Of a DNA stretch of 64,000 bases, positions 16,388 to 64,000 are shown piece after piece (positions within the stretch are counted from its first letter, which is position 1; the number at the start of each line of letters is the position of its first letter). The notes below the pieces were generated by a model. The model was given only the letters and a program-made list of their open reading frames with translations. It was not told where the DNA came from and searched no databases. This stretch comes from Aliikangiella marina. Its GTDB lineage: Bacteria; Pseudomonadota; Gammaproteobacteria; Enterobacterales; Kangiellaceae. The position numbers and the translations under genes are program-made. Where the stretch lies: NCBI RefSeq assembly GCF_007004765.1, contig NZ_VIKR01000002.1:1-64000 (forward strand), written 5' to 3'.

Positions 16388-16524
16388 GCTTCGGCGATTA
16401 GCGACTTTTTCAATTCTAGTTTTTCGAATCAAACTCAATTAAAGGTTTGCCCTGCCCAAGTCAAGCATTCAAATTTCATCCTAACGAAGAGTGCTCACAG
16501 TAAGATAATGCATAGATGACTAAG

Positions 16525-17004
16525 TTACTCACTAGGTTGAAACGAGCCCTGATAGTCGAGTTGTCGCCAAGCTTCATAAACGAAAATAGCGACACTATTA
16601 GACAGGTTGAGACTACGACTATTTTCAATCATGGGTAGACGTAGGATTTGTTGTTCTTTTACGCTCGTTAAAACTGCTTCGGGCAGCCCGCGCGTTTCCG
16701 GACCAAATATTAGATAGTCCCCTGCGTTAAACTTAACATCAGCTGGACCTTGTTTTCCATTTGTTTCACAGCAAAACAGCGTTGCATTTTGATTTCTTTT
16801 AGCCTGAAAATCGGCAAAACTTTTATAAATGTTTACATCAGCAAACTCGTGATAATCAAGACCCGCTCTACGCATACGCTTATCGTCGAGCTCAAAGCCT
16901 AAGGGTTCTATCACGTGGAGCTTAAAGCCAGTGTTTGCACACAGTCGAATGATGTTACCGGTATTGGGGGGTATTTCTGGCTCGAAAAGAACGATGTTTA
17001 ACAT
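16525..17004 (-). CDS. trmL: tRNA (cytidine/uridine-34 2'-O)-methyltransferase TrmL
   Basis: 159 residues, a SPOUT-fold methyltransferase of TrmL size. Motifs are [32 protein letters not shown] and the knotted SAM-binding C-terminus [16 protein letters not shown]. It 2'-O-methylates the wobble base of tRNA-Leu isoacceptors. It lies close to gpsA as in enterobacteria but converges with it here, and follows glnG on the minus strand after about 140 bases. Confidence 0.95.
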
Positions 17005-17147
17005 GATGATTTATGAGTTAAAATTCTGTGCGGAGTATTCTAACGACTAACCTATGCAGTGTCATCTTAGCTTAGTGGCAGAACAGTGCTATTTCTTCAG
17101 GCCTAAACATGTCCCTGATACTTTGGTTAACCGCTAACTTCATTAAA

Positions 17148-19578: not shown

Positions 19579-19836
19579 AATTAGATGGTTTAAATGATTA
19601 ACCTTTTTGGTGATTTTAGCCGATGCAGTTGAATATTGCACCGAAATGGTGCGTTAAAATGCTAATAAGTACGATTTTTTAGTTATATCACCATATTTGG
19701 AACAGACTTTGGGAATCCGGTTTACGAGGTTGACTGACTATCTCGTCAAGATTGGTTCAAACGGGTCAATATAGCGACTAACAAAAGGCTTATTATGAGC
19801 CTTCCATTAGTCGCCTAATTCAAGCGAGTGCTTGCT

Positions 19837-34475: not shown

Positions 34476-34897
34476 CGCGCTAAATTCAATTCCTGTTACC
34501 GACCACAAGATGTTTTTGAGATAAATTATTAGCGTCGGCAATAAAAATAAGAATGGTTATGCGCCTTCGACGCGATAGCCCAGGTTTATTTTGAGATAGT
34601 CGAAAACCTATCTCATTTCAAAGCATTACAAGCAACACGCTATTTTATCTAACAGGTTGTTTTTTATGTAATAATTCACTAAAAATAGCGCGTTAAACTC
34701 ACTATAATTTCCTTCAATAAACATCTCTATAAATGATAATTTTGCTTAAAATACTCGAGACTGAATTCGGTTCTCATTGCTTTTGTGGGATCGGTCACAC
34801 TTTGGAGTATGAGGGGGTTAAGTATTCTAAAGATTACCGATACAAACACCAGAAGTGTTGACCACTTGCATCTTTGTTAATTTTTTTGGTGATCCTA
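34476..34897. other. Intergenic region before the beta-helix lipoprotein pair
   Basis: About 420 bases with no gene. A TATAAT at 34703-34708 lacks a well-spaced -35. It begins with the GCGCGC hairpin at the end of the preceding gene. It probably contains the promoter for the lipoprotein at 34898. Nothing else was recognised. Confidence 0.45.
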
Positions 34898-49145: not shown

Positions 49146-49676
49146 ATGAAAGCAACGACCGCTTATTTGATCATACAATTAGGCATTTTATATCTGTTAG
49201 TATTTGGAATACCTGCATCTTCGGAGTGGTTATGGGGCTATGCTGTGCTGGCATCGCTCGGGGCAGTGTTTTTATATTGGCCCCACTTTCGTTACTTGGT
49301 TTCAGCAAAACCCCATTGGTTGAGCGACGAAAATCCTGTCAATGCCGAGGATATTAAAGTGCTCGAACGAGCATTAAAATTGCTCGAAGCACCCGAAAAC
49401 TGGGACCAAAACGATGATCGGCACTGTTTAATTTGGGAGAAAAAAAGTCTCTTCTGCGCCATCGCTTTGGCGCAAAAAGAAGTAATAGGCCACTATTCCC
49501 ATCGAAGTATTCCCGCACAAGAAGTACGCTTCACGATTGAACGAAACTATCCCAAGCGTTGGGACAAACATCCCATCATGGATTTTAACAACCATCAAGC
49601 GACAACATTTGATGAAATACAGAATGTACTGAGTGACACGATTCAACGACTGGAACAACGTCTCAAAGGTGCCTAA
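49146..49676 (+). CDS. Small membrane protein with DUF6197-like C-terminal region
   Basis: 176 residues: two membrane helices (about 5-22 and 28-46), then a soluble region. The soluble part (ALKLLEAPENWDQNDDRHCLIWE, then CAIALAQKEV and MDFNNHQATTFDEIQNVLSDTIQRLEQRL) has the spacing of DUF6197 proteins (a Leu-Trp helix, a short Cys-Ala-Leu helix, an Asn-Asp-x-x-x-Thr turn and a final helix). That assignment is from memory and weak. It precedes the carrier-protein operon but a promoter lies between them. Function unknown. Confidence 0.65.
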   Translation: MKATTAYLIIQLGILYLLVFGIPASSEWLWGYAVLASLGAVFLYWPHFRYLVSAKPHWLSDENPVNAEDIKVLERALKLLEAPENWDQNDDRHCLIWEKKSLFCAIALAQKEVIGHYSHRSIPAQEVRFTIERNYPKRWDKHPIMDFNNHQATTFDEIQNVLSDTIQRLEQRLKGA

Positions 49677-49832: not shown

Positions 49833-50072
49833 ATGAATACAGAACAAATAAGAGCAATTTTGGCCGAACACGGCCGTTTAACGACTCCTGTAGAAGACTT
49901 AGAAGACACCAGTGATCTCTATCACTCGGGGCTAACCTCATTGGCCACGGTGGGTTTAATGCTAGCGTTAGAAGACGAGTTTGATATTGAGTTTCCTGAT
50001 TCAGCGCTAAGTCGTAAAACTTTTACTAGCATAGAGTCGATCGCGGAAGTCATCGAAGAGCTAGTGGAGTAA
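49833..50072 (+). CDS. Acyl carrier protein (second copy in window)
   Basis: 79 residues. The phosphopantetheine site is DLYHSGLTSLATVGLMLALEDEFDIEFPD with Ser in LTS; helix III (SIESIAEVIEELVE) follows. It differs from the carrier protein at 21260 (TSL versus DSM) and is clearly a specialised carrier. The next genes, an acyl-CoA-dehydrogenase-like flavoprotein and DUF1839, are the kind found beside carrier proteins that bear amino-acid-derived groups. It is the first gene of the operon. Confidence 0.95.
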   Translation: MNTEQIRAILAEHGRLTTPVEDLEDTSDLYHSGLTSLATVGLMLALEDEFDIEFPDSALSRKTFTSIESIAEVIEELVE

Positions 50073-50103
50073 TTTATTTTTAAGACTAGAAGGATTTAGA
50101 ACA

Positions 50104-51285
50104 ATGCATCAGTCAATTCAGCAAACCGATTTTGATGCTTTAATGGAGCAAGTCCACAAAATCGGCAAAGAAGTAATCGCAGTTAACGCTGACGATGTTG
50201 ATAAACAGGCACGTTTTCCCAAAGAAAGCATTGAAGCCATAAAATCACTTAAATTAATGAGCGCTTATGTGCCAGCCAGTATGGGTGGCATGGGACTTAG
50301 TGTTGGGCAAGTCGCAAAAGTTTGCGAAGCGCTAGGCCACTATTGCGGGTCAACAGCAATGATCTACGCAATGCATAAAATCCAAGTCGCTTGTCTAACA
50401 CACCACTATCATGACTCGCCTTATCTTATTGATTACATAAGTAAACTGGTTAATGAGCAGCGTTTAATCGCTTCTGCAACAACAGAAATTGGCATTGGTG
50501 GTGATTTACGTTCAAGCATATGTGCAGTCGAAGTAGACGGCGACAGTTTTACCTTAACCAAAAAAGCGCCGGTTATTTCCTATGCCCTTGATGCCGACGA
50601 TATTCTGGTGACTGCCAGAAGGCAGGCTGATTCTGCAGCTAGCGACCAAGTTCAGGTTATGTTCCACAAGGGCCAGTTTGAACTAGAGCCAATATCGGGT
50701 TGGGATACGCTTGGCTTTAGAGGGACTTGTAGCTCTGGTTTTGTTATTTCTGGAAAAGGAAGTATTGGTCAAATTTTCCCAGAAAATTTCGGCGAAATTT
50801 TGAGTGAGTCGATGCATCCATTTGCGCATATTGTCTGGGCTTCACTTTGGAGTGGAATTGCCGCAGACGCAGTCAATAAGGCTCGTAAATTTATTCGCAA
50901 TCAAGCTAAGAAAAATATTAATGCGCCACCAATTTCTGCAATTAGATTGGGCGAGGTAGATTCTGTTTTGCAAAATATGCGTAACAATATTGCAGTCGCA
51001 GAGCAGGAGTATTCCGACATGCTAACGGCTGGCGATAAAAACGCGTTTAGTAATTTCGGGTTTGGCATTCGAATAAACAACTTAAAAACCAGCAGTGCGC
51101 AACTCATCGTTGATATTGTCGGTAAAGCTATGTTGATTTGCGGTATTGCCAGCTATCGAAATGATTCACCGATGAGCTTGTCTCGTCATATTCGCGACGC
51201 ATATGGTGCGGCGTTGATGGTTAACAATGATCGTATCATGTTACACAACTCAACTCTTTTGTTGATGCATCGCGAAGAACATTAG
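50104..51285 (+). CDS. Acyl-CoA-dehydrogenase-like flavoprotein
   Basis: 393 residues with the full acyl-CoA dehydrogenase fold: N-terminal helices (FPKESIEAIKSLKLMSAYVPASMGGMG), a middle strand domain (IASATTEIGIGGDLRSS, DTLGFRGTCSSGFVISG) and C-terminal helices ending LSRHIRDAYGAALMVNNDRI. The usual catalytic Glu near the end (EG in most members) is replaced by an Asn-Asn-Asp stretch at about 372-378, so the base may lie elsewhere or the reaction may differ. Placed 31 bases after a carrier-protein gene, it probably oxidises a carrier-bound acyl or aminoacyl group, as PltE-type enzymes do for prolyl-carrier proteins. The substrate is inferred. Confidence 0.9.
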   Translation: MHQSIQQTDFDALMEQVHKIGKEVIAVNADDVDKQARFPKESIEAIKSLKLMSAYVPASMGGMGLSVGQVAKVCEALGHYCGSTAMIYAMHKIQVACLTHHYHDSPYLIDYISKLVNEQRLIASATTEIGIGGDLRSSICAVEVDGDSFTLTKKAPVISYALDADDILVTARRQADSAASDQVQVMFHKGQFELEPISGWDTLGFRGTCSSGFVISGKGSIGQIFPENFGEILSESMHPFAHIVWASLWSGIAADAVNKARKFIRNQAKKNINAPPISAIRLGEVDSVLQNMRNNIAVAEQEYSDMLTAGDKNAFSNFGFGIRINNLKTSSAQLIVDIVGKAMLICGIASYRNDSPMSLSRHIRDAYGAALMVNNDRIMLHNSTLLLMHREEH

Positions 51286-51365
51286 CATTTGCTGACAATA
51301 ATTCCGCCGATTAAGCCTAAGGAAAAGGCAGACGGATAACGAGGAAATCGGAATTAAAAAGAATT

Positions 51366-52343
51366 ATGAAGCACAAGATTCTTAATCTTTCGCCTGATTC
51401 GTATCAGGCGAATTTTATTCATACTCAAGAGCGTGATTGGGCTGAAACCAATTGTTATGTCGACATTTGGATAGAACTTCTGCACGCGCTGAAAAAAGAC
51501 CCTAGAGCCGCTCTCTCATATACCCTTGCAATTGATTTTGAAGGCGATCAATGGACTTTCTTCAAATTTCCATTAAATGATCTAAAAGATCTATATGGAT
51601 TGGATGTTCAAGAACTGGCCGTTTGGCGTCCAGTGGTTGATCATGTTGAAGAGCAGGTTGCATTGGGACGCCCGGTACTGGTTGAGTTGGACTCTTTCTT
51701 CCTGCCAGATACCGTCGGGATGGCATATCAACTAGCGCATGTTAAATCGACTGTTGCTGTAACTGCGATAGATAAACAAGAAAAGCGTTTAGGATATTTT
51801 CATGGCCAAAGTTACTATGAGTTGTCCGGTGATGATTTTGATAAGGTATTTCATTTAGATCGAGATTATGACGACGCGATACTGCCGCCCTATGTTGAAA
51901 TCGTAAAGATAAGAAAAGGTTATGAGCCGAGCGATTCGAAAATGCTTGAAATAGTCAAACAGCAATTGATAGGTCAGTTAAATTGGCTTCCTCTCCAAAA
52001 CCCATTTACTGAATATCAAAAGCGTTTACAGGCGGATCTCGATTGGCTAATGTCTGAAGACATGCAGATGTTTCATGACTATTCTTTTGCGACCTTACGG
52101 CAGCTCGGTGCATGTTACGAATTGAGCACCCATTTTATTGATTGGCTGATTGAAAATGGCGAGACTTCGTTGGACGGAATACGTGCGGAATTTAAATCAA
52201 TCTCAGAGCTTGCAAAAGTCTATCAGTTTCAATTAGCACGAGCGATGAGTCGTAAGAAGCAACTTGATTTATCAACCATAGAAAAAATGGCTGAACACTG
52301 GGACAAAGCAATGTCCGGTTTAAAAGCGAAGTATTTACAATAA
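51366..52343 (+). CDS. DUF1839 family protein
   Basis: 325 residues. I recognise the DUF1839 pattern: ERDWAETNCYVDIWIELLHAL, then FEGDQWTFFKFPLNDLKDLYGLDVQEL and VLVELDSFFLPDTVGMAYQ. The early Cys, the His/Asp/Glu positions and the CYVD segment recall a papain-like or transferase fold, but no function is established. As I recall, these genes accompany amino-acid:carrier-protein ligases, carrier proteins and acyl-CoA dehydrogenases in rhizobia and others; that ligase is not seen here. It follows the flavoprotein by 80 bases and precedes the GH2 gene by 11. It is cytoplasmic. Confidence 0.85.
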   Translation: MKHKILNLSPDSYQANFIHTQERDWAETNCYVDIWIELLHALKKDPRAALSYTLAIDFEGDQWTFFKFPLNDLKDLYGLDVQELAVWRPVVDHVEEQVALGRPVLVELDSFFLPDTVGMAYQLAHVKSTVAVTAIDKQEKRLGYFHGQSYYELSGDDFDKVFHLDRDYDDAILPPYVEIVKIRKGYEPSDSKMLEIVKQQLIGQLNWLPLQNPFTEYQKRLQADLDWLMSEDMQMFHDYSFATLRQLGACYELSTHFIDWLIENGETSLDGIRAEFKSISELAKVYQFQLARAMSRKKQLDLSTIEKMAEHWDKAMSGLKAKYLQ

Positions 52344-52354
52344 ACCAGATTACA

Positions 52355-54856
52355 ATGATTCAACACCTTTCAGATATAGCATGGCAACTTGCAGCAACCG
52401 ACTGTGATGAAGTTGCTGCGCCTCAAGAATTATCTGAAGATTTAATTTGGATTGAGACAAAAGTTCCCAGTACCGTTGGTGAAGCAATCGAAGATTCCAA
52501 TACTTACAAGCATTTGCTCAATAGTATCGAATCCAAAGATTGGTGGTATCGATGTCGCTTTGATTTACAATCTTCACCAACTTCAACGAAACCTAAACTC
52601 GTTTTTGGTGGTCTCTCGACTTTAGCCGAAGTTTGGCTAAACGGTGAAGCCATTCTCATGACGGATAATATGTTCGTTGAGCATGAGGTATTTCTTGAGA
52701 ATTTAAAAAACATTGATAATGAATTAGTTATTCGCTTCCGTTCGGTTGAAAACTTCGTGAAACGAAGACACCCTCGCCCCGGTTGGAAAACTAAACTAGT
52801 CAATAATCAAAACCTTCGTTGGGTTCGAACGAGCTTGCTCGGCAGAATTCCTGGTTGGACGCCACCAGTTGTTGCAGTGGGTCCTTGGAAGCCAATTAAA
52901 CTGGAAACAGGAGTTCAATATTCGCAAGTAAAGCTGGTCACTGACCTTGAAAACAATCTTGGTAAGGTAGATTTCAGTTGTCAATTACACTCCACGGAGG
53001 AACTCACTAAAGCGGAACTAATCATCGGTGAAATAACTTATTTAGTGAATGCTGAAACTCTCGACCGAGAGTCAATTCGATTAATTGCTCAAGCCGAGAT
53101 TGAAGACCCAAAGTTATGGTGGCCACATACGCATGGCAATCCGATGCTGTACCCCGTCAGATTAAGAGTGTTTACATCCGAGACAGAAATAGAGTGGTCT
53201 ATTGGGGAAGTCGGTTTCCGGCAGTTAGCGATTGATCAAAGCGGTGAAGAATTTGAAATTTTAGTCAATGATAATCCTGTTTTTTGTCGCGGTGCTTGTT
53301 GGACTATCAACAACAACTTATCTTTATCTGGCAACTTGATGTTGTTGGAACAGCAGCTGGTTCACTTTAAACAAGCCGGTGGTAACATGATTCGAATCAT
53401 TGGGACTATGACCTATGAATCGGATGACTTTTATCAGCTTTGTAACCGTTTAGGGATCATGGTTTGGCAAGACTTCATGTTTGCCAATATGGATTACCCG
53501 TTTAGTGATTCTGGTTTTCGTCAGTCAGTCGAACAAGAAATTAAACAGCAAGTGGCACGCCTGAGCAAAAATCCCAGTTTAGTAATGTTCTGTGGCAACA
53601 GTGAGATTCAGCAGCAAATTGCGATGCTCGGCTTTTCTAAAGAGCACCAACAAATAAAGTTTTATGATGAAGAGCTGGCTAAATTTATTAAAGAAAACAC
53701 TCGGCAAGTCGAATACATTTCGTCTTCACCCTTTGGTGGTACCTTACCGTTTCATGTAAATCAATCGGTTTCACATTATTATGGTGTTGGCGCTTACCAG
53801 TGCTCGATTGCCGAACTAAGACAGCATGACGTTAAATTTACATCGGAGTGTTTAGGGTTTGCTAATATTCCAATCGAGCACTCACGTAACAAAATACTCA
53901 ATGGAGATATTCCTAAAATACATAATCCAAATTGGAAAGCTGCGACGCCTCGTGACAGTGGAGCAGGATGGGATTTTGAGGATGTAAGAGACTACTATCT
54001 TGCGTCTGAGTATTCAGTTGAAACACAAAAGTTGCGCTATGAAGATCCTGAGAAGTATCTCCAATTAAGTGAATTAATTACCGGTGAGCTGATGGGACGA
54101 TCCTTTGCAGAATGGCGTAGTCGTCATTCTAATTGTGCTGGTGGGCTCGTATGGTTTATGAAAGATATCCAATTGGGTGCTGGCTGGGGTATATATGATA
54201 GTCTTGGTTACCCAAAGGCTTGCTTTTACGAGTTAAAAAGGCATTGGCAACCATTATCGGTATTGCTTACGAATGAGTCGATCAATGGAATTGATGCACA
54301 TGTCATCAATGAGTCACAAGAAAATTTTAGTGGGCATCTCGTTGTTGCTTTGGTAAACAAAAGAGGTTTCGTGGCGACTGAAGTCAAGAAAGACATATCA
54401 GTCAAAAGCAGAAAGAGCCTAACGATTAATCTCGAAACAGTATTAGGTGGTTTTTATGATATTAACCACACTTATCGATTTGGTCCAGCTTCACATCAGT
54501 TAATCAGTGTATCGCTTTGCGATGACGAAACTAAATTAGCTGAATCTTTTTATCGTGTTGAGAAACAGGTTCCATTGGTCGACTATGAGGCCAAACTTGA
54601 ATATCAATTGACTGCAATCGATGACTTTCGTTATCAGTTAAAGGTCAGCGCAAACAAATACATTGCCGCGGTTACTATTAAAACACCGGGGTATATTGCG
54701 GAAGATAACTTTTTCAGTCTAATGCCAAATTCGCCTAAAACGCTTGAGTTAACTCGACATTGCGAGTATCAAGGCAAATTTAAAGGCTATATAAGTGCTC
54801 TCAATCTTTCCGAAGAGATAAAGCTTCGACCCACACAGCAAGAGGTTAAAGGCTAG
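52355..54856 (+). CDS. Glycoside hydrolase family 2 protein, beta-mannosidase-like, cytoplasmic
   Basis: 833 residues: jelly-roll sugar-binding domain (about 1-180), Ig-like domain (about 185-290), TIM barrel (about 295-640) and C-terminal beta domains. The likely acid/base is Glu417 in MFCGNSEIQ and the nucleophile Glu498 in KFTSECLGF, the two GH2 catalytic positions, both present. It resembles beta-mannosidases (CRGACWTINN, RIIGTMTYESDDFYQLCNRLGIMVWQDFMFAN). There is no signal peptide, so it works in the cytoplasm, which is unusual inside a biosynthetic operon. It may trim a lipid-linked or glycosylated intermediate, or act as a transglycosidase. The gap to the next gene is one base. Confidence 0.92.
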   Translation: MIQHLSDIAWQLAATDCDEVAAPQELSEDLIWIETKVPSTVGEAIEDSNTYKHLLNSIESKDWWYRCRFDLQSSPTSTKPKLVFGGLSTLAEVWLNGEAILMTDNMFVEHEVFLENLKNIDNELVIRFRSVENFVKRRHPRPGWKTKLVNNQNLRWVRTSLLGRIPGWTPPVVAVGPWKPIKLETGVQYSQVKLVTDLENNLGKVDFSCQLHSTEELTKAELIIGEITYLVNAETLDRESIRLIAQAEIEDPKLWWPHTHGNPMLYPVRLRVFTSETEIEWSIGEVGFRQLAIDQSGEEFEILVNDNPVFCRGACWTINNNLSLSGNLMLLEQQLVHFKQAGGNMIRIIGTMTYESDDFYQLCNRLGIMVWQDFMFANMDYPFSDSGFRQSVEQEIKQQVARLSKNPSLVMFCGNSEIQQQIAMLGFSKEHQQIKFYDEELAKFIKENTRQVEYISSSPFGGTLPFHVNQSVSHYYGVGAYQCSIAELRQHDVKFTSECLGFANIPIEHSRNKILNGDIPKIHNPNWKAATPRDSGAGWDFEDVRDYYLASEYSVETQKLRYEDPEKYLQLSELITGELMGRSFAEWRSRHSNCAGGLVWFMKDIQLGAGWGIYDSLGYPKACFYELKRHWQPLSVLLTNESINGIDAHVINESQENFSGHLVVALVNKRGFVATEVKKDISVKSRKSLTINLETVLGGFYDINHTYRFGPASHQLISVSLCDDETKLAESFYRVEKQVPLVDYEAKLEYQLTAIDDFRYQLKVSANKYIAAVTIKTPGYIAEDNFFSLMPNSPKTLELTRHCEYQGKFKGYISALNLSEEIKLRPTQQEVKG

Positions 54857-54857
54857 T

Positions 54858-56810
54858 ATGACCTCTGATGTACAAACCTCAATTCGTAATCAGTCTGGAG
54901 AAGCAATATCTCGAGAGCCAGAGTCATCGAGCAAAAAAGTCGAACAAAACTCGTTTGCAGAGGATACGCGACAATTTGCGGAAAAAAGATTTAAAAAAAT
55001 AAAAAGACTGCCTTTCTACTTTGGAGAAAACGAAAGAGCAATGTTGGGATGGCTGCATTTCGATGAAAGGGTAAAACAGTCCGATACTTGTGTGCTTATT
55101 TGTCCGCCTCTGGGTTTAGAGTATATGAATACTTATCGTTCACTTCGGTACTTAGCGGACTATTTTGCGCTTGCTGGCATACCGGCATTGAGGTTTGATT
55201 ATTATGGAACCGGAGACTCCTCAGGTTTTAATATTGAAGGTAACCGCCTAGTCGATTGGACTGAGGCAATCATTCAATCTAAAGACAAAGTGAAAAGTTT
55301 AACAGGAGCTAAAAAGGTTGCAGTTTTCGGTTTGGGTATTGGTGGTACTATCGCTGCCTCGGCGCCCTTTAATGAGATTATCGATTATTTAATATTATGG
55401 GGAACTCCGGATAGAGGAAAACGATTTGTTCGCGAAATAAAAGCGTTGCAAATGACGTCGGCTATCGACTCAAGTGATCTTGAGTCCGGTCGCATTGAAG
55501 CTGGTGGAATGATTTATTGGCCGGAGACTATTGATGCGTTCGGACAAATAAACTTACAACAATCCAAGCCTCATGCAGATAGAGTACTATTACTGGAAAG
55601 GGATGACGTACCTGTCATGAAAAAACTTGCATCATCTTGGGCATCTATGGAAGACAAACTTGAGGTTAAGGTTCTCGATGGATTTTCTGATATGTTGCAA
55701 AATGCCCACCTTTCTCTTGTACCTCATTCAGCGCTGCAAGAGATTGCCTCTTGGTTAAAAGCAAAATCTAACTTAAAGGTCGAGTTGACAAGCCATCAGA
55801 TTGAAGCGATGGTTCGCGATCAGGTCTCAAAACAAGTTTTTTCTATTCCCAATAATGCACCGTCGAACATAGACGCTAGTCCGGTTACTACGACCATTAG
55901 TGAACGTTTTTTTAGATTTGGTAAAAATGATAAAGGGTTTGGAATTGTTGCCAGTCCAGAGGAAACCAGCAGCGATTTACCCAAAATAGTATTATTAAAT
56001 TCTGGTGCGACCCACAGAGTAGCACCGGGGCGATTATACGTACTTTTATCTCGTCAATTGGCCAAATGCGGATTTGATGTTTTTCGAGTAGATCTTCCCG
56101 GTTTAGGCGATAGTCAAATCAATGATCGTGATCTCGAGAGAATCGAATATCCTGATGAACCATCTGAAAAAATTGAGTCGATTATCAAAGCAATAGAAAA
56201 ACAATATCCCGGTAGTCAATTTATTGTTATGGGGCTATGCTCAGGTGCTTATCATTCATTTAAATATGGGATGGAAACAACCAGAAGTAACATTTTGGAG
56301 TCAGTCCTGATTAACCCTTTGGTTTTTTATTGGGATAAAAGAGCGTCCGTTGATTCTTTCGCAAGAAATTTTAGTGATTGGAATGATTTTAAACTAGCGC
56401 TCACCAATATAAGAAGTTGGAAGCGATTTTTAAAATTTGAGATTAACATCTTTGCTAAAATCAAGATTGTTCTAATCAGAATGTGTGTCAAGCTTGAAAG
56501 TCTGATGCGTAGAATGATTGGCCAAGCCAGCGAAGCGTCTGATTGCGGTAACACAGGCGATTTGAACAAAGACTTAAATGCGTTTATTAATAAAGGGATC
56601 AAGCTTTCATTCTTCTTTTCGAGAGAAGATCCGGGTTATGACTTGCTAACTACCAGTGCAAATATTACTGCGCCTAAGTTAATTAAAGCTAAAAAAATAG
56701 ACGTGTCTTTTGTTGAAAAGGCAGACCATACTTTTTCTAAATTTAAACCGAAACACAAAGTTATTGAGTTAATTGTCAAACATCTGGTTGAACGATATAA
56801 CAGGAAGTAA
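54858..56810 (+). CDS. Fused double alpha/beta hydrolase, related to exosortase-system hydrolases
   Basis: 650 residues with two alpha/beta-hydrolase domains (about 50-305 and 350-645). Domain 1 has CPPLGLEYMNTYRSLRYLADYFA and FDYYGTGDSSG, but the nucleophile elbow reads GLGIG (158-162), with Gly160 where Ser should be; it is probably inactive or an acyl-binding domain. Domain 2 has a GLCSG elbow with Cys461 as nucleophile, and a late ADHTF that supplies the His. Cys-type elbows (GLC) are, as I recall, typical of exosortase-A-system hydrolase 1, while hydrolase 2 also lacks Ser. A Cys thioesterase or acyltransferase acting on a carrier-bound group is a fair inference. It follows the GH2 gene by one base. 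Confidence 0.83.
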   Translation: MTSDVQTSIRNQSGEAISREPESSSKKVEQNSFAEDTRQFAEKRFKKIKRLPFYFGENERAMLGWLHFDERVKQSDTCVLICPPLGLEYMNTYRSLRYLADYFALAGIPALRFDYYGTGDSSGFNIEGNRLVDWTEAIIQSKDKVKSLTGAKKVAVFGLGIGGTIAASAPFNEIIDYLILWGTPDRGKRFVREIKALQMTSAIDSSDLESGRIEAGGMIYWPETIDAFGQINLQQSKPHADRVLLLERDDVPVMKKLASSWASMEDKLEVKVLDGFSDMLQNAHLSLVPHSALQEIASWLKAKSNLKVELTSHQIEAMVRDQVSKQVFSIPNNAPSNIDASPVTTTISERFFRFGKNDKGFGIVASPEETSSDLPKIVLLNSGATHRVAPGRLYVLLSRQLAKCGFDVFRVDLPGLGDSQINDRDLERIEYPDEPSEKIESIIKAIEKQYPGSQFIVMGLCSGAYHSFKYGMETTRSNILESVLINPLVFYWDKRASVDSFARNFSDWNDFKLALTNIRSWKRFLKFEINIFAKIKIVLIRMCVKLESLMRRMIGQASEASDCGNTGDLNKDLNAFINKGIKLSFFFSREDPGYDLLTTSANITAPKLIKAKKIDVSFVEKADHTFSKFKPKHKVIELIVKHLVERYNRK

Positions 56811-56818
56811 TAGCGTTT

Positions 56819-57637
56819 ATGGATAATAAAAATTCTCCCAAAAACATTCTTATAGTTGGTATGCCTCGATCCGGGACCAGTATGACAACTAATATTTTCG
56901 TGCGCCAAGGCTATTATGTCGCGGAAGACCTAAAGTCTCAAACTCGACAAGGCGATAAAGATAATCCCGCGGGTTATTTTGAAGCAGAACAACTGATCGA
57001 GGCTAATGTATCGGTATTCAACGCAGCGGGTTATCCTCACCACAATACTTGGTTATTTGACGCTATTGATGTTGAAACAGCTAATTCTATTGATAATGTC
57101 CGACCTGAGGAGTCACATCGAGCACTGGTTGACAGTTATAATCAGCATAATCCTTGGGTATGGAAGGATCCGCGACTTTGTTACACCTTAGGTTACTGGT
57201 GGAATATTCTTGATAAAGACTCTACGGCAGTCTTGCTATTAAGGCGCAACCCAATGGATATCTATCAAAGTTTTCTGAGAATGAATTGGCGCAAGGGCTC
57301 TGAAGAAGATAAGCAAGATGTTTTAGAGCGAGAAATCGCCCATATTACTGCCGCAAAAAAAACGATAGAAGCATTAGATATCCCCTATGTTGAAATTGAC
57401 TATGGGAAATTTGAATCAAACCCAAAAGAAATTATAGGTAAACTGAATAGTACGTTTAATTTGAATTTGAAAGTGACCGATTTGGGGTACGATAAGAAAT
57501 TAAACCATAAAGGATTCAAAGGAAAAATTGGTGTTTATCTACGCCGGCTTAAGTCGTTCCTTTTTCCGCATTGGCTACGAAGCTTTATAAAGGTTATGTT
57601 GCCAAAATTTCTCCTAGAAAAATTGAAGAAGAATTAG
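56819..57637 (+). CDS. Sulfotransferase family protein
   Basis: 272 residues. The PAPS loop is ILIVGMPRSGTSMTTNIFVRQGYYV, and the 3'-phosphate motif is AVLLLRRNPMDIYQSFLRMNW. In between, PWVWKDPRLCYTLGYWW is typical of bacterial sulfotransferases of the sugar or lipid type. It likely sulfates a sugar or acyl group of the product made by this operon. It is different from the sulfotransferase at 45289. The gap to the preceding gene is 8 bases. Confidence 0.88.
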   Translation: MDNKNSPKNILIVGMPRSGTSMTTNIFVRQGYYVAEDLKSQTRQGDKDNPAGYFEAEQLIEANVSVFNAAGYPHHNTWLFDAIDVETANSIDNVRPEESHRALVDSYNQHNPWVWKDPRLCYTLGYWWNILDKDSTAVLLLRRNPMDIYQSFLRMNWRKGSEEDKQDVLEREIAHITAAKKTIEALDIPYVEIDYGKFESNPKEIIGKLNSTFNLNLKVTDLGYDKKLNHKGFKGKIGVYLRRLKSFLFPHWLRSFIKVMLPKFLLEKLKKN

Positions 57638-57652
57638 TTCGAGTATTCATCG

Positions 57653-58648
57653 ATGAAAAACATTAGCGAATTAGATGGTTGGCGCGGAATCAGTATTTTA
57701 TTGGTGTTAGCAGCCCATTTATTACCCTTAGGCCCTAAGTTTATGCAGTTAAACGGCACGGCCGGGGCGATGGGAATGGCGCTGTTTTTTACGCTTAGTG
57801 GGTTTCTGATAACCAGTTTCTTACTGAAAGATCAAAGTATTATCAAATTTTTGATTAGGCGTTTTACTCGAATAATTCCGCTTGCATGGTTGTATCTTTT
57901 TATTATGTTTTTGTTTGTTCCAGCAACTCCAACAGACATAATGCACAATTTTTTATTTACCGCTAATTTAGGGGAATATAATACCAATCATTTTAATACA
58001 CACTTCTGGAGTTTGTGTGTCGAAATGCAGTTTTACATTGGTATTGCGTTAGTTATCGCTCTATTCAAAGAGAAAGGGTTTATTTTCATCCCGGTTTTCT
58101 GTATCGCGATTACGCTGTATCGAGTCGACAATCAAGCCTATGTAAACACGACGACCTTACTTCGTTTAGATGAAATTCTTGCCGGCGGCATATTAGCAAT
58201 GGTCAGTCATGGTAAGCTCGGCGATAAAGCTTTAGCATTTTTAGGCCAGCTAAATCCTTTTGTAATGTTTGCACTGTTTTTTATTTCGTCTCACCCCGAA
58301 AGTGAGTGGGCGAATTATTTTCGGCCCTATTTTGCTGCGATGCTAGTTGGCTCTACCATGTACAATAAAAAAGCACTGGTCAATGGTTTTCTCAGTTGGA
58401 GCGTATTAAAGTACGTCGCTGCGATTTCTTATGCACTTTATGTGATACATGGTGGTTTAAGATATACCTGGCTAGGGGAAGGTGCGGACACTTTAGAAAA
58501 GTATTTAAAGCGACCGCTCTTATTTGCGGTCATATTTGGTTTGGCACACATATCAACATTTTATTACGAGAGAAAAGTCAACGATTGGGGAAGAAAGTTT
58601 TCAAATCGTTTTGATAAAAAGAATCTGACCAAAGAGATTCAAAACTAG
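57653..58648 (+). CDS. Membrane O-acyltransferase (acyltransferase 3 family)
   Basis: 331 residues, about ten membrane helices. It begins with the family signature ELDGWRGISILLVLAAHLL (conserved Arg and His) followed by MALFFTLSGFLI. HFWSLCVEMQFYIG is the second conserved region. It acylates a glycan or glycolipid hydroxyl at the inner membrane. It lies 15 bases after the sulfotransferase gene in a tight operon. Confidence 0.92.
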   Translation: MKNISELDGWRGISILLVLAAHLLPLGPKFMQLNGTAGAMGMALFFTLSGFLITSFLLKDQSIIKFLIRRFTRIIPLAWLYLFIMFLFVPATPTDIMHNFLFTANLGEYNTNHFNTHFWSLCVEMQFYIGIALVIALFKEKGFIFIPVFCIAITLYRVDNQAYVNTTTLLRLDEILAGGILAMVSHGKLGDKALAFLGQLNPFVMFALFFISSHPESEWANYFRPYFAAMLVGSTMYNKKALVNGFLSWSVLKYVAAISYALYVIHGGLRYTWLGEGADTLEKYLKRPLLFAVIFGLAHISTFYYERKVNDWGRKFSNRFDKKNLTKEIQN

Positions 58649-58682
58649 ACGTTTAGTATTACTTAACTAGAGAAAGCTTAAA

Positions 58683-59630
58683 ATGAATAGAGATTACCTC
58701 ATTATTTCTCCATGTAGAAATGAGGAAGCATTTATGAGACATACGCTCGATAGTGTGACTCAGCAATCCATTAAACCGAAGAAATGGATTATCGTGGACG
58801 ATGGCTCTACTGACTCAACACCGTCGATACTCAAAGAATATGCGGATAAGTTTAGTTTCATCGAGATTGTCACCCGTGACAATAGAGGACATCGAAGTGT
58901 TGGCCCTGGTGTAATTGAAGCGTTTTATGAGGGATATTCGCATATCAACATTGATGACTATCAATATATTTGTAAGCTCGATCTTGATTTGATATTGCCG
59001 CCCAAATATTTCGAACTAGTCATGCAAAAGCTTGAAGGTGACCAGCGTCTAGGTACGTACAGCGGAAAAGCTTATTACACCGATAAAGCGAGCGGTAAAT
59101 ATGTTAGCGAGGGCTGTGGTGACGAATCTTCAATTGGTGCGACTAAGTTTTATAAAGTAGTTTGCTTCAAGCAAATTGGCGGTTTTGTTAGGCAGGTGAT
59201 GTGGGATGGAATAGATAGTCATCGGTGCCGGTATTTTGGTTGGAAGTCAGCCAGTTATGACGAAGAAGAAACTCGATTTACCCATCTCCGGCCGATGGGC
59301 TCGAGTCAAAAAGGGATATTAACGGGCCGTCAAAGACACGGGTTCGGTCAATATTTTATGGGAACAGGCATCGTTTATATGATGGCTGCAACAGTTTATC
59401 GCCTGGTTAAAAGACCTTTTATTATCGGTGCACTCGCAATGTTTTGGGGTTATATGAAGAGTATGCTAACGCGAGTAGAAAAGATGAACGACCCTGAGTT
59501 AATAAAGTTTATTAATCAATATCAATGGAATTGTTTATTTAAGGGAAAAGCAAAAGCCACTCGGCTATTAGAAGAAAAACAAGCAAGCAAGTGGGAGCCT
59601 CACCAAAAAGGCTATGATTTACCAATATAA
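58683..59630 (+). CDS. Glycosyltransferase family 2
   Basis: 315 residues. It starts YLIISPCRNEEAFMRHTLDSVTQQ, with WIIVDDGSTDSTPSIL as the nucleotide-binding loop and ICKLDLDLILPPKYF as the Asp-x-Asp motif. Hydrophobic stretches at about 225-260 suggest membrane contact. It adds a sugar to a lipid-linked or glycolipid acceptor; the donor is unknown. Confidence 0.92.
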   Translation: MNRDYLIISPCRNEEAFMRHTLDSVTQQSIKPKKWIIVDDGSTDSTPSILKEYADKFSFIEIVTRDNRGHRSVGPGVIEAFYEGYSHINIDDYQYICKLDLDLILPPKYFELVMQKLEGDQRLGTYSGKAYYTDKASGKYVSEGCGDESSIGATKFYKVVCFKQIGGFVRQVMWDGIDSHRCRYFGWKSASYDEEETRFTHLRPMGSSQKGILTGRQRHGFGQYFMGTGIVYMMAATVYRLVKRPFIIGALAMFWGYMKSMLTRVEKMNDPELIKFINQYQWNCLFKGKAKATRLLEEKQASKWEPHQKGYDLPI

Positions 59631-59687
59631 TGATTTATTAAAACAACAATTGATATCAATGTCGAAATAAGCCTAAAAGGATTTATC

Positions 59688-60920
59688 TTGAGTAACCAAG
59701 CGTTGAAGCGAGTTTTATATCTCGCACCGGAAGTTCCTGCACTGTCAGCAACATTTGTATATAACGAAATCTTTGCCTTAAAAAAAGAAGGCCATTTTGT
59801 TGCTGTCGCTTCAGTGCATCTTCCTGCGGCTAAAGTTGGAGAATCTGTTAAAGCAGAACTTGGCGATGTTTTTTTCTTATATAAACAAAGCTTTATGCAT
59901 AAGCTTAAAAACTTTTGTAAAGGTGTCGTAAGAAACCCAATAAATTCCTTGACTACTGTGTTTGTAATGTTGAAAGACTTTTTTAAGTTAGGTGTCATTA
60001 CTAACACTGCGCTGGGACAGTTTTATCGGTTCTTCGTTTCTTTTTCGCTTGCGAACTATATTACTGAAAATAAAATTGAACATATTCATGTTCATTTCGC
60101 CCATGTTCCGACTGATTTAGCAATGTATGCGAGTTTGATTACTGGTCGCAGCTTTAGTGTAATGGCTCATGCTAACGATATATTTGAGCGAGGCTATTTA
60201 CTTGATGAAAAAATTTCGCGAAGTAAATTCTTCGCAACAATTTCGCAATATAACATTAATTATCTCAAACAGTTTTCAAATAAAACCGAAAAGTTAAAAA
60301 TAGTCCACTGCGGTGTCGATACAAATGCTTATGGTGAACCATCATTAAGAGCGAAAAACGGCGTGCCTATTATTGGCTTTCTGGGAAGGCTGGTTGAGAA
60401 GAAAGGTTGTACCTATTTGCTTGATGCAGTTAGCCAATTAAAAGCTCAAGGTGAGTCTTTTAGGCTAGAAATTGTCGGTGATGGTCCGCTTCTAGAAGAG
60501 CTGAAAGCTCAAACTAACAAACTTCAGCTCAATGATATTGTCGAATTTAAAGGAAGTATGCCAAATAAAGATGTTTTAAAATGGTTAACTTCGCTAACTG
60601 GTTTTGTTTTACCGTGTGTTGAGGATTCGAATGGCGATAAGGATGGTATACCAGTATCTCTGATGGAAGCAATGTTGTTTGGCGTTGTGGTAATTTCGAC
60701 AAATCTATCTGGTATACCCGAATTAGTTTTAGATGAGAAAACGGGCTTTATCGCAGAAACAGGGAACACTGACGATTTAACTCGAAAAATTGCACAGTTA
60801 CTGAGCCTTGACGAAATACAAAGAAAAAATCTGCTCGGTAACGCATTAAATCATGTCGTGGAAGAATTTGATCTCCAGCGAAACGCGAACAAGCTCTCAA
60901 CTTATATCCAACAACCATGA
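59688..60920 (+). CDS. Glycosyltransferase family 4
   Basis: 410 residues. The N-terminus VLYLAPEVPALSATFVYNEIFALKKEGH is the acceptor domain. The C-terminus shows VHCGVDTNAYG, IIGFLGRLVEKKGCTYLLDA, EIVGDGPLLEELK and DGIPVSLMEAMLFGVVVISTNLSGIPELV, the donor-binding Glu motif of retaining GT4 enzymes. The start is TTG 59688 with AAAAGGA seven bases upstream, a strong ribosome site. It is a cytoplasmic enzyme. Confidence 0.94.
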   Translation: MSNQALKRVLYLAPEVPALSATFVYNEIFALKKEGHFVAVASVHLPAAKVGESVKAELGDVFFLYKQSFMHKLKNFCKGVVRNPINSLTTVFVMLKDFFKLGVITNTALGQFYRFFVSFSLANYITENKIEHIHVHFAHVPTDLAMYASLITGRSFSVMAHANDIFERGYLLDEKISRSKFFATISQYNINYLKQFSNKTEKLKIVHCGVDTNAYGEPSLRAKNGVPIIGFLGRLVEKKGCTYLLDAVSQLKAQGESFRLEIVGDGPLLEELKAQTNKLQLNDIVEFKGSMPNKDVLKWLTSLTGFVLPCVEDSNGDKDGIPVSLMEAMLFGVVVISTNLSGIPELVLDEKTGFIAETGNTDDLTRKIAQLLSLDEIQRKNLLGNALNHVVEEFDLQRNANKLSTYIQQP

Positions 60921-60929
60921 ATATAACTG

Positions 60930-62039
60930 ATGAATAATAAAGGTGAGTTAAAGTATATACCGACATTGGATGGATGGCGTGCAGTCGCTATTTTACTGGT
61001 GATGGCATCTCATGCTTTTTATTCGTTGAAAACCTATTATGGGGAAAATGAGTGGTTAACGATTTTCTCCTCTGAGGGGTTGATGGGGGTGAGGATATTT
61101 TTTGGCATTAGCGGCTTTTTAATAACCTCTAAAATCTTGGACGAGATTCAGAAAACGCAACAATTTTCTTTAAAGAATTTTTATTACCGCCGTATATTCA
61201 GGTTAGGCCCAGCGCTACTGCTATTTTGCTCTGTAATCGGTCTATTGTCTTTACTCAATATTATTAGTATTAGCCTTTTAGAGTGGTTTGGTGGAATTCT
61301 ATTTTTCGCAAATTTTATTACTAAAAGCTGGTATACAGGACATTTATGGTCTCTCTCTGTTGAGGAGCATTTTTATATTGTCTGGCCCTTATTGATTTTA
61401 TTTTTTAATATTCAAAAACGGCCGAAAGTCGTGTTAATGCTAATTGCAGTTTTTGTTATTTGGAGGTTAGTCAGTTGGAAGTACGGCCTTTTTCGCTCAC
61501 CGGCATTGTTTTGGGGAAGAACCGATATTCAAATCGATGGTTTATTATGGGGGTGTTTGCTCGCAATTTTAATGAAAGATGAGCAGTACCAAGTATATCG
61601 AAAATGGTTCACAAGCCACCTGTTTGCATATGCCTCGCTAACTTTGTTTGTCGGATTGTTTTTTATCGATGCAACTGATTACAAGTTCCGACATGCTCTC
61701 TATGCCGTACAAGCTTGTTTGATACCTATTTTTATTGCCGGTTTCGCTGCTAACCCTCAAACTCTTCTGTCTAAATTTTTAGAGATCTCTGCAATCAAGT
61801 GGATCGGTCGAATTTCATATAGTTTGTATTTGTGGCAACAGCTTTTTCTCACTAGCGAAGTTGGTGCTTCAGAGAATATGGGAGTATTCCAGCATTGGCC
61901 TATTAATATATTTGCGGCCTTTGCTTGTGCGACTTTAAGTTATTACTTAGTAGAAAAACCGATTATTCGATTTGGCCACAAATTCACTCGTAAAAGAGAC
62001 GCTTTGAGAAAGGCTAGGCATCAATCGATTGCGACTTAG
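60930..62039 (+). CDS. Membrane O-acyltransferase (acyltransferase 3 family)
   Basis: 369 residues, about ten helices. Signature regions are PTLDGWRAVAILLVMASHAFYS, GVRIFFGISGFLIT and GHLWSLSVEEHFYIVWPLL. It is the third enzyme of this family in the window and the second in this operon. It is the last plus-strand gene before a convergent acetyltransferase; its final 26 bases overlap the 3' end of that gene on the other strand. The C-terminus is basic. Confidence 0.93.
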   Translation: MNNKGELKYIPTLDGWRAVAILLVMASHAFYSLKTYYGENEWLTIFSSEGLMGVRIFFGISGFLITSKILDEIQKTQQFSLKNFYYRRIFRLGPALLLFCSVIGLLSLLNIISISLLEWFGGILFFANFITKSWYTGHLWSLSVEEHFYIVWPLLILFFNIQKRPKVVLMLIAVFVIWRLVSWKYGLFRSPALFWGRTDIQIDGLLWGCLLAILMKDEQYQVYRKWFTSHLFAYASLTLFVGLFFIDATDYKFRHALYAVQACLIPIFIAGFAANPQTLLSKFLEISAIKWIGRISYSLYLWQQLFLTSEVGASENMGVFQHWPINIFAAFACATLSYYLVEKPIIRFGHKFTRKRDALRKARHQSIAT

Positions 62040-62550
62040 TATTAGATTTTACTTTCGCGGGAATACCAACAGCAGTATGGTTTTCAGGTACATTTTCTAA
62101 GACAACAGACAAAGCACCAATCTTTGCATTGTTACCGACAGTAACATCGCCTAGAACCTGTGCATAAGCACCTAACTCTACATTGTCACCTAATGTTGGC
62201 GCAAACTCGTCATTGTACCGATTCCCGAGAGTAACACCTTGTCTCAAAGTGCAATTTGCACCAATCACGGTGTTTTGGTGAATGAAAACATTACCAAAAT
62301 GGTAAATTCTTAGACCACCACCTATTTTTATTGATTTGGCAATGCTAATGCCAGTTGCGAGAGTAACAAAGTGAAAGATTATCCAGTAAAAAGACATCGC
62401 AATTTTTTTAAAGAAACCATCTTTCATTAAGTCGATAGACTCGCCTTTTCTATGCCAATAGACAGCCCAAATGGACGGCTCTCTCAGCCACGGCTTTTTA
62501 GGGTAACGGCTTAAATCGTCTTTCCATTTTATTTTTATATCTTTATGCAT
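62014..62550 (-). CDS. Serine O-acetyltransferase-like hexapeptide acetyltransferase
   Basis: 178 residues. A short basic N-terminus and a hydrophobic segment (about 48-75) precede a left-handed beta-helix of hexapeptide repeats (about 80-165: GGLRIYHFGNVFIHQNTVIGANCTLRQGVTLGN, then LGDNVELGAYAQVLGDVTVGNNAKIGA). It resembles the short CysE-type proteins found in polysaccharide clusters, which usually acetylate sugars and not serine. Its His in IYHFGNVFIH is the likely catalytic base. It is convergent with the acyltransferase gene and divergent from the condensation-domain gene. Confidence 0.85.
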   Translation of the reverse strand: MHKDIKIKWKDDLSRYPKKPWLREPSIWAVYWHRKGESIDLMKDGFFKKIAMSFYWIIFHFVTLATGISIAKSIKIGGGLRIYHFGNVFIHQNTVIGANCTLRQGVTLGNRYNDEFAPTLGDNVELGAYAQVLGDVTVGNNAKIGALSVVLENVPENHTAVGIPAKVKSNTKSQSIDA

Positions 62551-62797
62551 TTAACTTGATAACTAGTAAATTTAAGAATGGTCCAGAAACAAAGCGACGA
62601 GTTTATATCACTGTAATCTAACAACTATGTTACGAGAAAGCGGATTATATCAAAGAAAAATTAAGAACGCTCGATTTGATGGAATTATAAGTGATAAGAG
62701 CAAGATTTATTTTAGCCAGTAGATTTATTCTGTAAGGGAATTTAAGTATCATGAGAACATATAAAATTAACTATCGTACTAGACTGATAAAGTAAAC
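62551..62797. other. Divergent AT-rich intergenic region
   Basis: It lies between the acetyltransferase (minus) and the condensation-domain gene (plus). No clear promoter pair or RNA was recognised. Confidence 0.4.
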
Positions 62798-64000
62798 ATG
62801 GATGTATTTAAATCTCAGCCTACTGATAATGCGTATATCGGCTTAGACGAGCTGGAAAAACCAGCTTGGTACGTCGTAGAAGGTAGTGAGTGTAAGAAGC
62901 TTTTATTCGATGAAAATAATCTAAATTCTCCATTTACGCGACATTCAATAGAATATGAACCTTTTAGAAACGGCAAGTTTCAAAAAGGATATCCCCTACT
63001 TCAAAATCAATCAGAAATTTGGCTTGCATGTAAACTTGGAGGTATAGCGGCTTCCAAAGCATTCAATATCGCTTGTTCGATTACAATTAATCAACCTTTA
63101 GATATTGAAAAATTTAGTCAAGCGTTTGAACGAGCACTGCATGAAACAGAAGCATTTAAAACGGTGTTTAGTAAGACTGGTCGATACCGACTGATTCAGT
63201 GTGACCCAGTTCACGATTTTGCGTATTACGATGCTGCCAGTGATGGAGCTAATGAAGCTAGCGCAAAGATTAAAGTGAAAATTCGAAACTTTGCGAATCA
63301 AGCATTTTCATTAGAAGCGGGCGGTTTGCTGCGGATCTTATTAATCAAACTAGAAGCCAATAAATATCAACTTGTTATTACAACCCATCATGCGGTCTGT
63401 GACCGAAGAGGACTGTTACTCTATATTGATCACTGTATTGCCAAGTATCATAAATTGGTCACTCAAAGCAGTGATGGAGTGAAAAAAGACATCACTAAAC
63501 GTCTCGCTATAAACGAAGCTACGCCCTTTAATTTGGATCAAGTTAAGAAGTCTCAGGATTATTGGCGCGAAAAAATGACGGTCGAGCATGAATATACCGA
63601 ATTTCCGTTAGACTTTGTTCGAGGTGCCGATAGGCAATATCGATGTGATGTTTATGCTGGCCATTTGGAGGATAGGTTATCCGAAAAACTATTAGCCTAT
63701 GCACGTTCTATTTCAGTAAAACCTAAGATTATTTTATTAACTGCTTATACACTACTTTTGGCTCGCCTAAATCAACAACCAAAAGTCGGTTTTGGATTAT
63801 CTACATCCTTACGAGATAATATATTAGAAAGCCAGTATTTAGGAAACGCCGTTTGTCTGATTCCGCTATTTGCTGATATTTCTTCAATAGAGAATACGAG
63901 GGATTTAATCACGCAGGTTGACCAAACAACCAAGGATATATATCAGTATAACCAGACGAGCTATGGCGAAATAATCGGTTACTCTTCTAGACAACGGTCA
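62798..64000 (+). CDS. NRPS-type condensation domain protein (3' end outside window)
   Basis: 401 codons are open to the window edge. ATG 62798 is the first start after an in-frame TAG at 62780. Motifs are YPLLQNQSEIWLACKLGG (residues about 65-81, the opening condensation motif), TTHHAVCDRRG (catalytic HHxxxD, His197-His198 and Asp202, with Arg203 where Gly is usual), and LGNAVCLIPLFADIS (the late VGNxVN-like motif). Condensation domains join carrier-bound acyl or aminoacyl groups to an amine or hydroxyl. Whether adenylation or carrier domains follow cannot be seen. It lies beside the carrier-protein operon and may use its carrier protein. Confidence 0.88.
   Translation, partial: MDVFKSQPTDNAYIGLDELEKPAWYVVEGSECKKLLFDENNLNSPFTRHSIEYEPFRNGKFQKGYPLLQNQSEIWLACKLGGIAASKAFNIACSITINQPLDIEKFSQAFERALHETEAFKTVFSKTGRYRLIQCDPVHDFAYYDAASDGANEASAKIKVKIRNFANQAFSLEAGGLLRILLIKLEANKYQLVITTHHAVCDRRGLLLYIDHCIAKYHKLVTQSSDGVKKDITKRLAINEATPFNLDQVKKSQDYWREKMTVEHEYTEFPLDFVRGADRQYRCDVYAGHLEDRLSEKLLAYARSISVKPKIILLTAYTLLLARLNQQPKVGFGLSTSLRDNILESQYLGNAVCLIPLFADISSIENTRDLITQVDQTTKDIYQYNQTSYGEIIGYSSRQRS

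Follow-up and report, generated by a model that had tools for sequence, protein, structure and literature searches.

Amino acid:[carrier protein] ligases of the Bll0957 type were reportedly described by Mocibob et al. In B. diazoefficiens, bll0957 encodes the ligase of solved structure, and bll0958, the next entry in a table of PMC10888616, is an acyl-CoA dehydrogenase. Structures of such ligases have been solved, and a review (PMC9437257) calls their biological role unknown. In the lincosamide synthetase, CcbD and LmbD form a carrier-dependent amide bond between a thiooctose and an alkylproline by a ping-pong mechanism on a cysteine, with a carrier-bound amino acid (proline) and an amino sugar as the substrates of CcbD (PMC12945683). 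The dlt D-alanylation system (DltA/DltC) combines a stand-alone adenylation protein with a stand-alone carrier. The hydrolases of the exosortase-A-associated set (TIGR03098, TIGR03100 and TIGR03101) also occur in polysaccharide loci, and the set is not known to include DUF1839 or GH2. Here, we analyzed a stretch of 64,000 nucleotides from Aliikangiella marina (contig NZ_VIKR01000002.1 of assembly GCF_007004765.1, positions 1 to 64,000 of the forward strand; hereafter the window), in which five genes at 49833-56810 encode a carrier protein, an acyl-CoA-dehydrogenase (ACAD)-fold flavoenzyme, a DUF1839 protein, a GH2 glycosidase and a fused double hydrolase. This gene set is, to our minds, beyond reasonable doubt real, and the five genes are probably one instance of a conserved aminoacyl-carrier-protein module.

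Comparison with the systems above revealed partial likenesses to each. DUF1839 shares with CcbD and LmbD a nearly full-length fold, Cys and His residues at similar spacing and an adjacent carrier, but identity is only ~12%, and the module includes ACAD, GH2 and a fused hydrolase and occurs in many phyla. CtaG (closthioamide) and AziU3/U2 (azinomycin), compared by their PDB titles only, have the same fold (Z 16-18) but are 10-14% identical and belong to other pathways. The ligase of one related locus (L020, 6038-6967, in genome G203) matches Bll0957 at 236 bits, but no aminoacyl-tRNA synthetase (aaRS)-like ligase was found in the genome of A. marina. A stand-alone adenylation protein and a stand-alone carrier recall the dlt system, but both scored under the corresponding cut-offs (DltA TIGR01734, 304.2 vs 559.85; DltC TIGR01688, 24.8 vs 52.35) and transfer in the module is predicted to be performed by a papain-like enzyme, DUF1839. 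The halves of the fused hydrolase resemble hydr2 and hydr1 of the exosortase-A-associated set, both again under cut-off (65.7 bits vs 202.75 for TIGR03101; 100.9 vs 168.45 for TIGR03100). A literature search for the gene set, with most subscription papers outside its reach, found no description of it, and searches on aminoacylated carriers, CtaG as a carrier enzyme and exosortase-associated ligases found nothing useful.

To define the related loci, genome contigs were scanned with a DUF1839 alignment and the best 80 of at least 557 confirmed DUF1839 stretches were retained; these were ranked by likeness to the DUF1839 of the window, and frequencies among them do not describe all DUF1839 genes. 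Neighboring genes within 8 kb of DUF1839 were scored with profiles built from the module genes. This analysis revealed ACAD in 80 loci, the carrier in 79, GH2 in 78, an aaRS-like amino acid:[carrier protein] ligase in 76 and the hydrolase in 56; the two loci without GH2 and the one without a carrier were short contigs. Judged by record titles, the 80 loci span at least 10 phyla (three had no phylum assigned), and because the same genes recur side by side across them the gene set goes beyond chance, which answers the neighborhood check proposed by an earlier reading made from the window's letters alone (the sequence-only reading). Seven loci scored as having ACAD before the acyl carrier protein had over-extended open reading frame (ORF) starts, as revealed by checking the domain starts. 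On an Azospirillum plasmid identified by tblastn, ACAD and DUF1839 of the module flank a sixth gene, annotated as amino acid--[acyl-carrier-protein] ligase; this plasmid and one from Azospirillum oryzae carried all six genes in order, and Caballeronia and Shinella had the same order minus the hydrolase. Modules with the ligase are also found in the named strains Azospirillum brasilense Sp7 (L016) and Pleionea sediminis (L040). DUF1839 was present in 16 of 398 sampled genomes of the phylum, and in the 15 other than that of A. marina the ligase lay directly beside a DUF1839 gene; 12 further genomes of the 398 had an over-cut-off ligase and no DUF1839. A phosphopantetheinyl-transferase-like ORF was found within 3.5 kb on the carrier's side in 9 of 84 loci (L064, L066, L070, L074, L076, L081, L083, L092 and L098), of the AcpS-like kind; PF01648 was confirmed for L064, L092 and L098, and the ORF of L083 looks doubtful.

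We then examined the loader. Family and protein searches (NF005479 and the ligase of L020) did not find the aaRS-like ligase in the A. marina genome (G000), nor was it found in loci L024, L032, L037 and L052 or in their genomes. The sequence-only reading had seen no loading ligase in the window; it was correct, and this was its most informative point. It suggested that a loader may lie beyond position 64000. A nonribosomal peptide synthetase (NRPS) adenylation domain is encoded just past that point, but the strongest loader candidate is the product of a single gene at C4:547460-548995, on another contig: a stand-alone adenylation protein of the NRPS type. Stand-alone adenylation proteins of ~512 amino acids, alike at the N terminus, were seen in the ligase-less genomes while adenylation domains were being compared. 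Identity to the A. marina protein was 76% in G748 (L037), 67% in G747 (L032) and 63% in G346 (L024), and 54% over residues 1-147 in G749 (L052), where the contig ends; thus, all five ligase-less module genomes encode this orthologous protein. At E limits of 1e-40 (25 genomes, up to 50 candidates each) and 1e-60 (50 genomes, up to 30 each), searches of 75 module genomes with the ligase did not detect it, the best other match being 39% identical; a cut copy such as that of G749 (E 1e-43) would escape the search at 1e-60. These 75 genomes represent 73 of the 76 ligase-bearing loci, all but L072, L088 and L101, together with G071 and G203. Among 369 sampled genomes of the class, with four candidates scored per genome, only G000 and G346 had the adenylation protein, and of the four DUF1839 genomes among those 369 these were exactly the two without the ligase.

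The five ligase-less loci were scattered on a tree of DUF1839, ACAD and GH2, and the starred branches force five changes. The tree was a quick LG+G4 analysis of 41 rows chosen around the ligase-less ones from a 77-locus FastTree, 15 rows having an odd amino-acid composition. Inheritance of the ligase-less modules as one variant was rejected, since the tree needs five changes and its starred branches force them. Repeated replacement of the ligase by the adenylation protein as loader is therefore, in our assessment, very probable. The protein scored over the cut-off for amino-acid adenylation domains and under those for DltA and the exosortase-associated ligase. Its presumed pocket-lining stretches were nearly unchanged in the four full-length copies, and the carrier was little changed between ligase-bearing and ligase-less modules. 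In the genome of L032 the adenylation protein is encoded 2.1 kb past the module's hydrolase; in the other cases it is encoded elsewhere in the genome, and in three genomes its neighbors, judged from first residues only, look unrelated and include no visible carrier gene. Separately, a ligase gene beside DUF1839 in G548 (C23:92354-93265) contains one in-frame TAA and is perhaps a further loss under way.

We modeled DUF1839 with AlphaFold2 from a 53-sequence alignment (mean predicted local distance difference test [pLDDT] score, 95). The best PDB match was CcbD (Z 19.9 over 286 residues at 3.4 A, nearly the full chain), extending over the C-terminal helices as well as the papain-like core. AziU3/U2 (Z 18.0) and CtaG (Z 16.8 over 271 residues) were further nearly full-length matches; below a large drop stood Lpg2622 at Z 8.0, together with further papain-type proteases that aligned over residues 1-185 and some unrelated helical proteins. 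In Foldseek, the top match was AziU3/U2 (E 1.8e-7); CcbD had an E of 1.6e-5, and the TM-scores were 0.53-0.62. These nearly full-length matches, like the adenylation protein shared by the ligase-less genomes, are new here. C30 and H146 were invariant in 53 of 53 DUF1839 sequences; the acids E107, D109 and D157 were also invariant, as was R292, which might take part in carrier docking. The Cys-His spacing of 116 compares with 117 in CtaG (C11-H128) and 112 in CcbD (C19-H131; the position of H131 is from PMC12945683), the equivalence being one of spacing, not superposition. In the literature searched, DUF1839 was named in one paper only (PMC10318531), in which a papain-like protein is predicted, its triad given as C(T/S)H, and a role in glycan processing at the cell wall is guessed. 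On the basis of the model, DUF1839 is most likely a carrier-dependent transferase. The idea of an aminoacyl group on a carrier with a dedicated transfer enzyme, put forward in the sequence-only reading, gains from the ligase in 76 of 80 loci and from the fold shared with CcbD; its assignment of transfer or release to the condensation domain or the Cys hydrolase is revised here, the most likely transfer enzyme being DUF1839 instead.

The remaining module proteins were compared with their relatives in the same way. The carrier belongs to the PRK07081 family (NF005480/PRK07081, 105.6 bits vs a cut-off of 72; PP-binding, 38.3 bits), and the phosphopantetheine serine was present in 81 of 81 aligned carriers. 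The ACAD model (pLDDT 93.6) matched AnaB, ColB1, TcsD, KijD3 and acyl-CoA dehydrogenases nearly equidistantly. PDB titles describe TcsD as acyl-ACP, ColB1 as catalyzing assembly-line-tethered cysteine dehydrogenation and AnaB as a prolyl acyl carrier protein oxidase, and because ColB1 and AnaB are among the matches, enzymes of this fold can act on carrier-bound amino acids. In by-eye alignment to known motifs, the classical C-terminal Glu position was V or I in 86 of 87 rows (one gap) and the classical helix Glu position was not Glu in the window protein; the 87-row ACAD alignment and an 85-row set count L021 and L024, which share one contig, twice. GH2 was closest to beta-mannosidases, with the nucleophile position (E498) kept in 75 of 75 sequences and the acid/base position (E417) Glu in 70 and D in 5. 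Among 55 fused hydrolases, the C half retained the Cys of GxCxG in 53 of 53 with a residue there, and the N half had R or G at this place in all 55.

Every reaction that follows is an inference from these data, as are the identities of the amino acid and the acceptor and a link to the sulfated polysaccharide encoded nearby. A loading ligase would activate an amino acid and place it on the carrier phosphopantetheine; in most related loci this would be the aaRS-like ligase encoded between ACAD and DUF1839, and in A. marina, where that ligase is gone, the protein at C4:547460-548995 would load the carrier instead. The ACAD-fold flavoenzyme may oxidize the aminoacyl group while it is bound to the carrier, or else may oxidize an amine. 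DUF1839 would receive the aminoacyl group on Cys30 and hand it to an amine, most likely an amino sugar, forming an amide as CcbD does, and GH2 and the fused Cys hydrolase could trim or release a glycoside or thioester. An amino sugar is the likeliest amine since GH2 is present in 78 of 80 loci, is closest to beta-mannosidases and keeps its catalytic positions; we give it an even chance. The account we lean towards, by a modest degree, is that an aminoacyl group is assembled on the carrier and transferred to an amine as an amide, the loader having been replaced in A. marina.

Several observations weigh against this account. In 24 of the 80 loci no hydrolase turned up within the 8-kb limit; 11 of these had <3 kb of sequence downstream, 12 had at least 9.7 kb, and in L031 the hydrolase lay barely outside the limit. 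Some genomes are metagenome-assembled and may be incomplete. The adenylation protein is tied to the module by co-distribution only. Five of five independent pairs differed oppositely in ligase and adenylation protein (floor P = 0.0625), and since each trait is the exact complement of the other across the 41 rows, the pair test contributes nothing beyond a count of losses; the placements of the window (86) and of L032 (82) are not starred. Three modules that have the ligase (L022, L080 and L098) also have genes for other adenylation-type proteins at a distance of up to 10 kb. The code of the adenylation protein, read by eye as DNFFIAMVDK, is not a glycine code, and Gly, Ala and Ser are listed for the aaRS-like ligases in PMC9437257; the two loaders may therefore use different amino acids. 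Assigning an amino acid from this code was rejected, since its positions had been picked out by eye. Dehydrogenases and monooxygenases tie in the ACAD fold comparison (Z 41.3 to 38.4), and assigning its chemistry from the fold was rejected for this reason, the two lying within three Z units. The fold alone does not fix the DUF1839 reaction either, because its fold relative AziU3/U2 is a ring-forming enzyme. Finally, no flanking gene reveals the acceptor and the glycan context is mostly not conserved: detectable glycan-assembly genes were near 20 of 87 modules, and 14 of 84 had a GT4-like gene close by, with the window included in both counts.

That DUF1839 might act as a protease or thioesterase, or catalyze ring formation, is suggested by its matches to papain-type proteases at Z 6-8, by the ring-forming chemistry of AziU3/U2 (Z 18) and by its classification among papain-like peptidases (PMC10318531). 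The top match by Z, however, is an amide synthase, CcbD, which lies far above the proteases and includes the C-terminal helices, and a carrier gene adjoins DUF1839 in 79 of 80 loci; we consider an enzyme that does not form amides improbable. CtaG is also amide-forming. A different loader or partner has also to be considered. Read past position 64000, the condensation protein is a 1129-amino-acid condensation-adenylation-thiolation (C-A-T) NRPS (62798-66187) with no thioesterase match, whose glycine-type adenylation domain could supply glycyl groups for the condensation domain to pass on or join to the carrier-bound group. It is the adenylation gene nearest to the module, its code (DILQLGMIWK, read by eye) is glycine-like and one letter off the glycine code, and a deltaproteobacterial module (L057) is adjoined by an NRPS (C-A-T-hydrolase, 16169-20446, minus strand) with motifs read as a similar glycine-like code. 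Against this, a convergent gene stands between the C-A-T NRPS and the gene run, the NRPS carries a T domain of its own, proximity is weak evidence because the A. marina genome is full of NRPS modules, and among the matches listed its relatives in the other four ligase-less genomes reach at most 34% identity over most of the length. As these four genomes lack a close relative, it was rejected as the loader, and a role as loader or partner seems to us quite unlikely.

The failure to find the ligase anywhere in the A. marina genome could also mean that the module there is a decaying remnant that has lost its loader. All five genes are open, with conserved residues kept, DUF1839 is up to 63% identical to the copies of its relatives, and five scattered ligase losses are each accompanied by the same adenylation protein in the genome; decay is thus highly unlikely. 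A further possibility is that the module adds an aminoacyl group to the local sulfated exopolysaccharide, with the sulfotransferase, acyltransferases and glycosyltransferases in one pathway. The single tight gene run at 49833-62039 favors this, as do the polysaccharide genes upstream (an over-cut-off XrtA-type chain-length determinant, a priming transferase and a flippase), the two sulfotransferases of the locus and the presence of a sulfotransferase near the module in two genomes of the same class (L019 and L020). A sulfotransferase was, however, found near 3 of 87 modules, these two and the window, and the annotated plasmid loci showed no surrounding polysaccharide locus, apart from a single family 9 glycosyltransferase gene in Azospirillum brasilense. 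Glycan flanks were sought by single-seed phmmer, which misses distant members, so the counts given here for such genes are lower bounds. Because such genes are near few modules, coupling to a sulfated polysaccharide characterizes the window locus, possibly along with two relatives, and not the module itself. As a general rule, the sulfated-glycan attachment put forward in the sequence-only reading is not supported. A joint pathway in A. marina is possible but doubtful, and the same doubt applies to the sulfated polysaccharide as the target of its module.

The arrangement first read from the window locus was confirmed (Table 1). All named genes are open ORFs at the positions listed. The five module genes form a tight operon with a sulfotransferase, two acyltransferases and two glycosyltransferases, as ORFs, family matches and gaps of 1-80 bp in a single direction across 49833-62039 attest, the largest gap (80 bp) lying between ACAD and DUF1839. 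The condensation protein beyond the convergent gene was likewise confirmed by a Condensation match. The proposed search past position 64000 and through the genome turned up the C-A-T adenylation domain and two phosphopantetheinyl transferases in the genome; after the C-A-T NRPS, two single hydrolases matching the fused-hydrolase profile lie on the opposite strand. Upstream, at 22071-48974, the window encodes an export protein, dTDP-rhamnose genes, a priming transferase, a flippase, glycosyltransferases, a further sulfotransferase and the XrtA-type chain-length determinant (346.9 bits vs a cut-off of 278.85).

Table 1. Features at and around the DUF1839 module in the window
Position	Strand	Feature	Basis
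49146-49676		DUF6197 protein immediately upstream of the carrier gene	Family match
49833-50072	+	Stand-alone carrier protein, 79 amino acids; phosphopantetheine serine in GLTSL	Family matches
50104-51285	+	ACAD-fold flavoenzyme, presumed to act on a carrier-bound substrate	Family and fold matches
51286-51365	.	80-bp gap; relatives have the aaRS-like amino acid:[carrier protein] ligase at the same place	
51366-52343	+	DUF1839, predicted carrier-protein-dependent amide synthase; invariant C30 and H146	380 bits
52355-54856	+	GH2 beta-mannosidase-like glycosidase; no evident signal peptide (by eye)	
54858-56810	+	Fused double alpha/beta hydrolase; GxCxG in C half, N half without nucleophile there	
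56819-57637	+	Sulfotransferase; same gene run, outside the conserved module	34.7 bits, cut-off 27
57653-58648	+	Acyl_transf_3 membrane O-acyltransferase; same run	
58683-59630	+	GT2-like glycosyltransferase; same run	Matches under curated cut-offs
59688-60920	+	GT4-like glycosyltransferase, EpsE/WcaL-like; TTG start as listed; same run	Under cut-offs
60930-62039	+	Second Acyl_transf_3 O-acyltransferase; final gene of the run	
62014-62550	-	Convergent serine-O-acetyltransferase-like protein, EpsC-like	Under cut-off
62798-64000	+	N-terminal part of C-A-T NRPS (Condensation), cut at the window end; continues to contig position 66187	

Other features were recorded in the course of these analyses. 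The polysaccharide locus of the window includes two large proteins with PKD-domain matches (34874-37525 and 37777-39741), and a run of NRPS modules of ~190 kb, with open frames of up to 9002 amino acids, occupies the minus strand at ~1199000-1389000 of contig C1 of the A. marina genome (G000). A DUF1839 gene without the module lies beside a ParB-domain gene on a conjugative Rhizobium plasmid (L015:8962-9948), and in each of two genomes a further DUF1839 copy lies apart from the ligase (G605:C159:127-1047 and G677:C2:2215276-2216190). Upstream of the module in L022 (381-5323) is a second set, which may represent a sister pathway; it consists of an adenylation ligase, a small carrier-like ORF, an ACAD and a pair of single hydrolases. 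Beside the module in L037 (2384-7142) are genes for an NAD+-synthase-like protein, an AMP ligase, a carrier-like ORF and an XrtA-like amidotransferase. Downstream of the module in L019 (10047-11714), a 555-amino-acid protein without a Pfam match is encoded between a carrier-like ORF and another double hydrolase.

Taken together, these data assign the amino acid:[carrier protein] ligases to a constant set of genes that also encodes a glycosidase and a predicted amide synthase, and their role can therefore be tested gene by gene in culturable strains. The gene set and its conservation, the loss of the ligase and the inverse distribution of ligase and adenylation protein are observed, as are the predicted fold and conserved residues of DUF1839. 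The fullest form of the proposal, a phylum-spanning N-aminoacyl amino-sugar pathway with a papain-like amide synthase, an interchangeable loader and, in A. marina, a product in the sulfated polysaccharide, is unlikely to hold in every part. If it is true, DUF1839 would gain a function, and the exchange of a tRNA-synthetase-like for an NRPS-like loader would mean that unrelated families of amino-acid-activating enzymes are interchangeable in one pathway.

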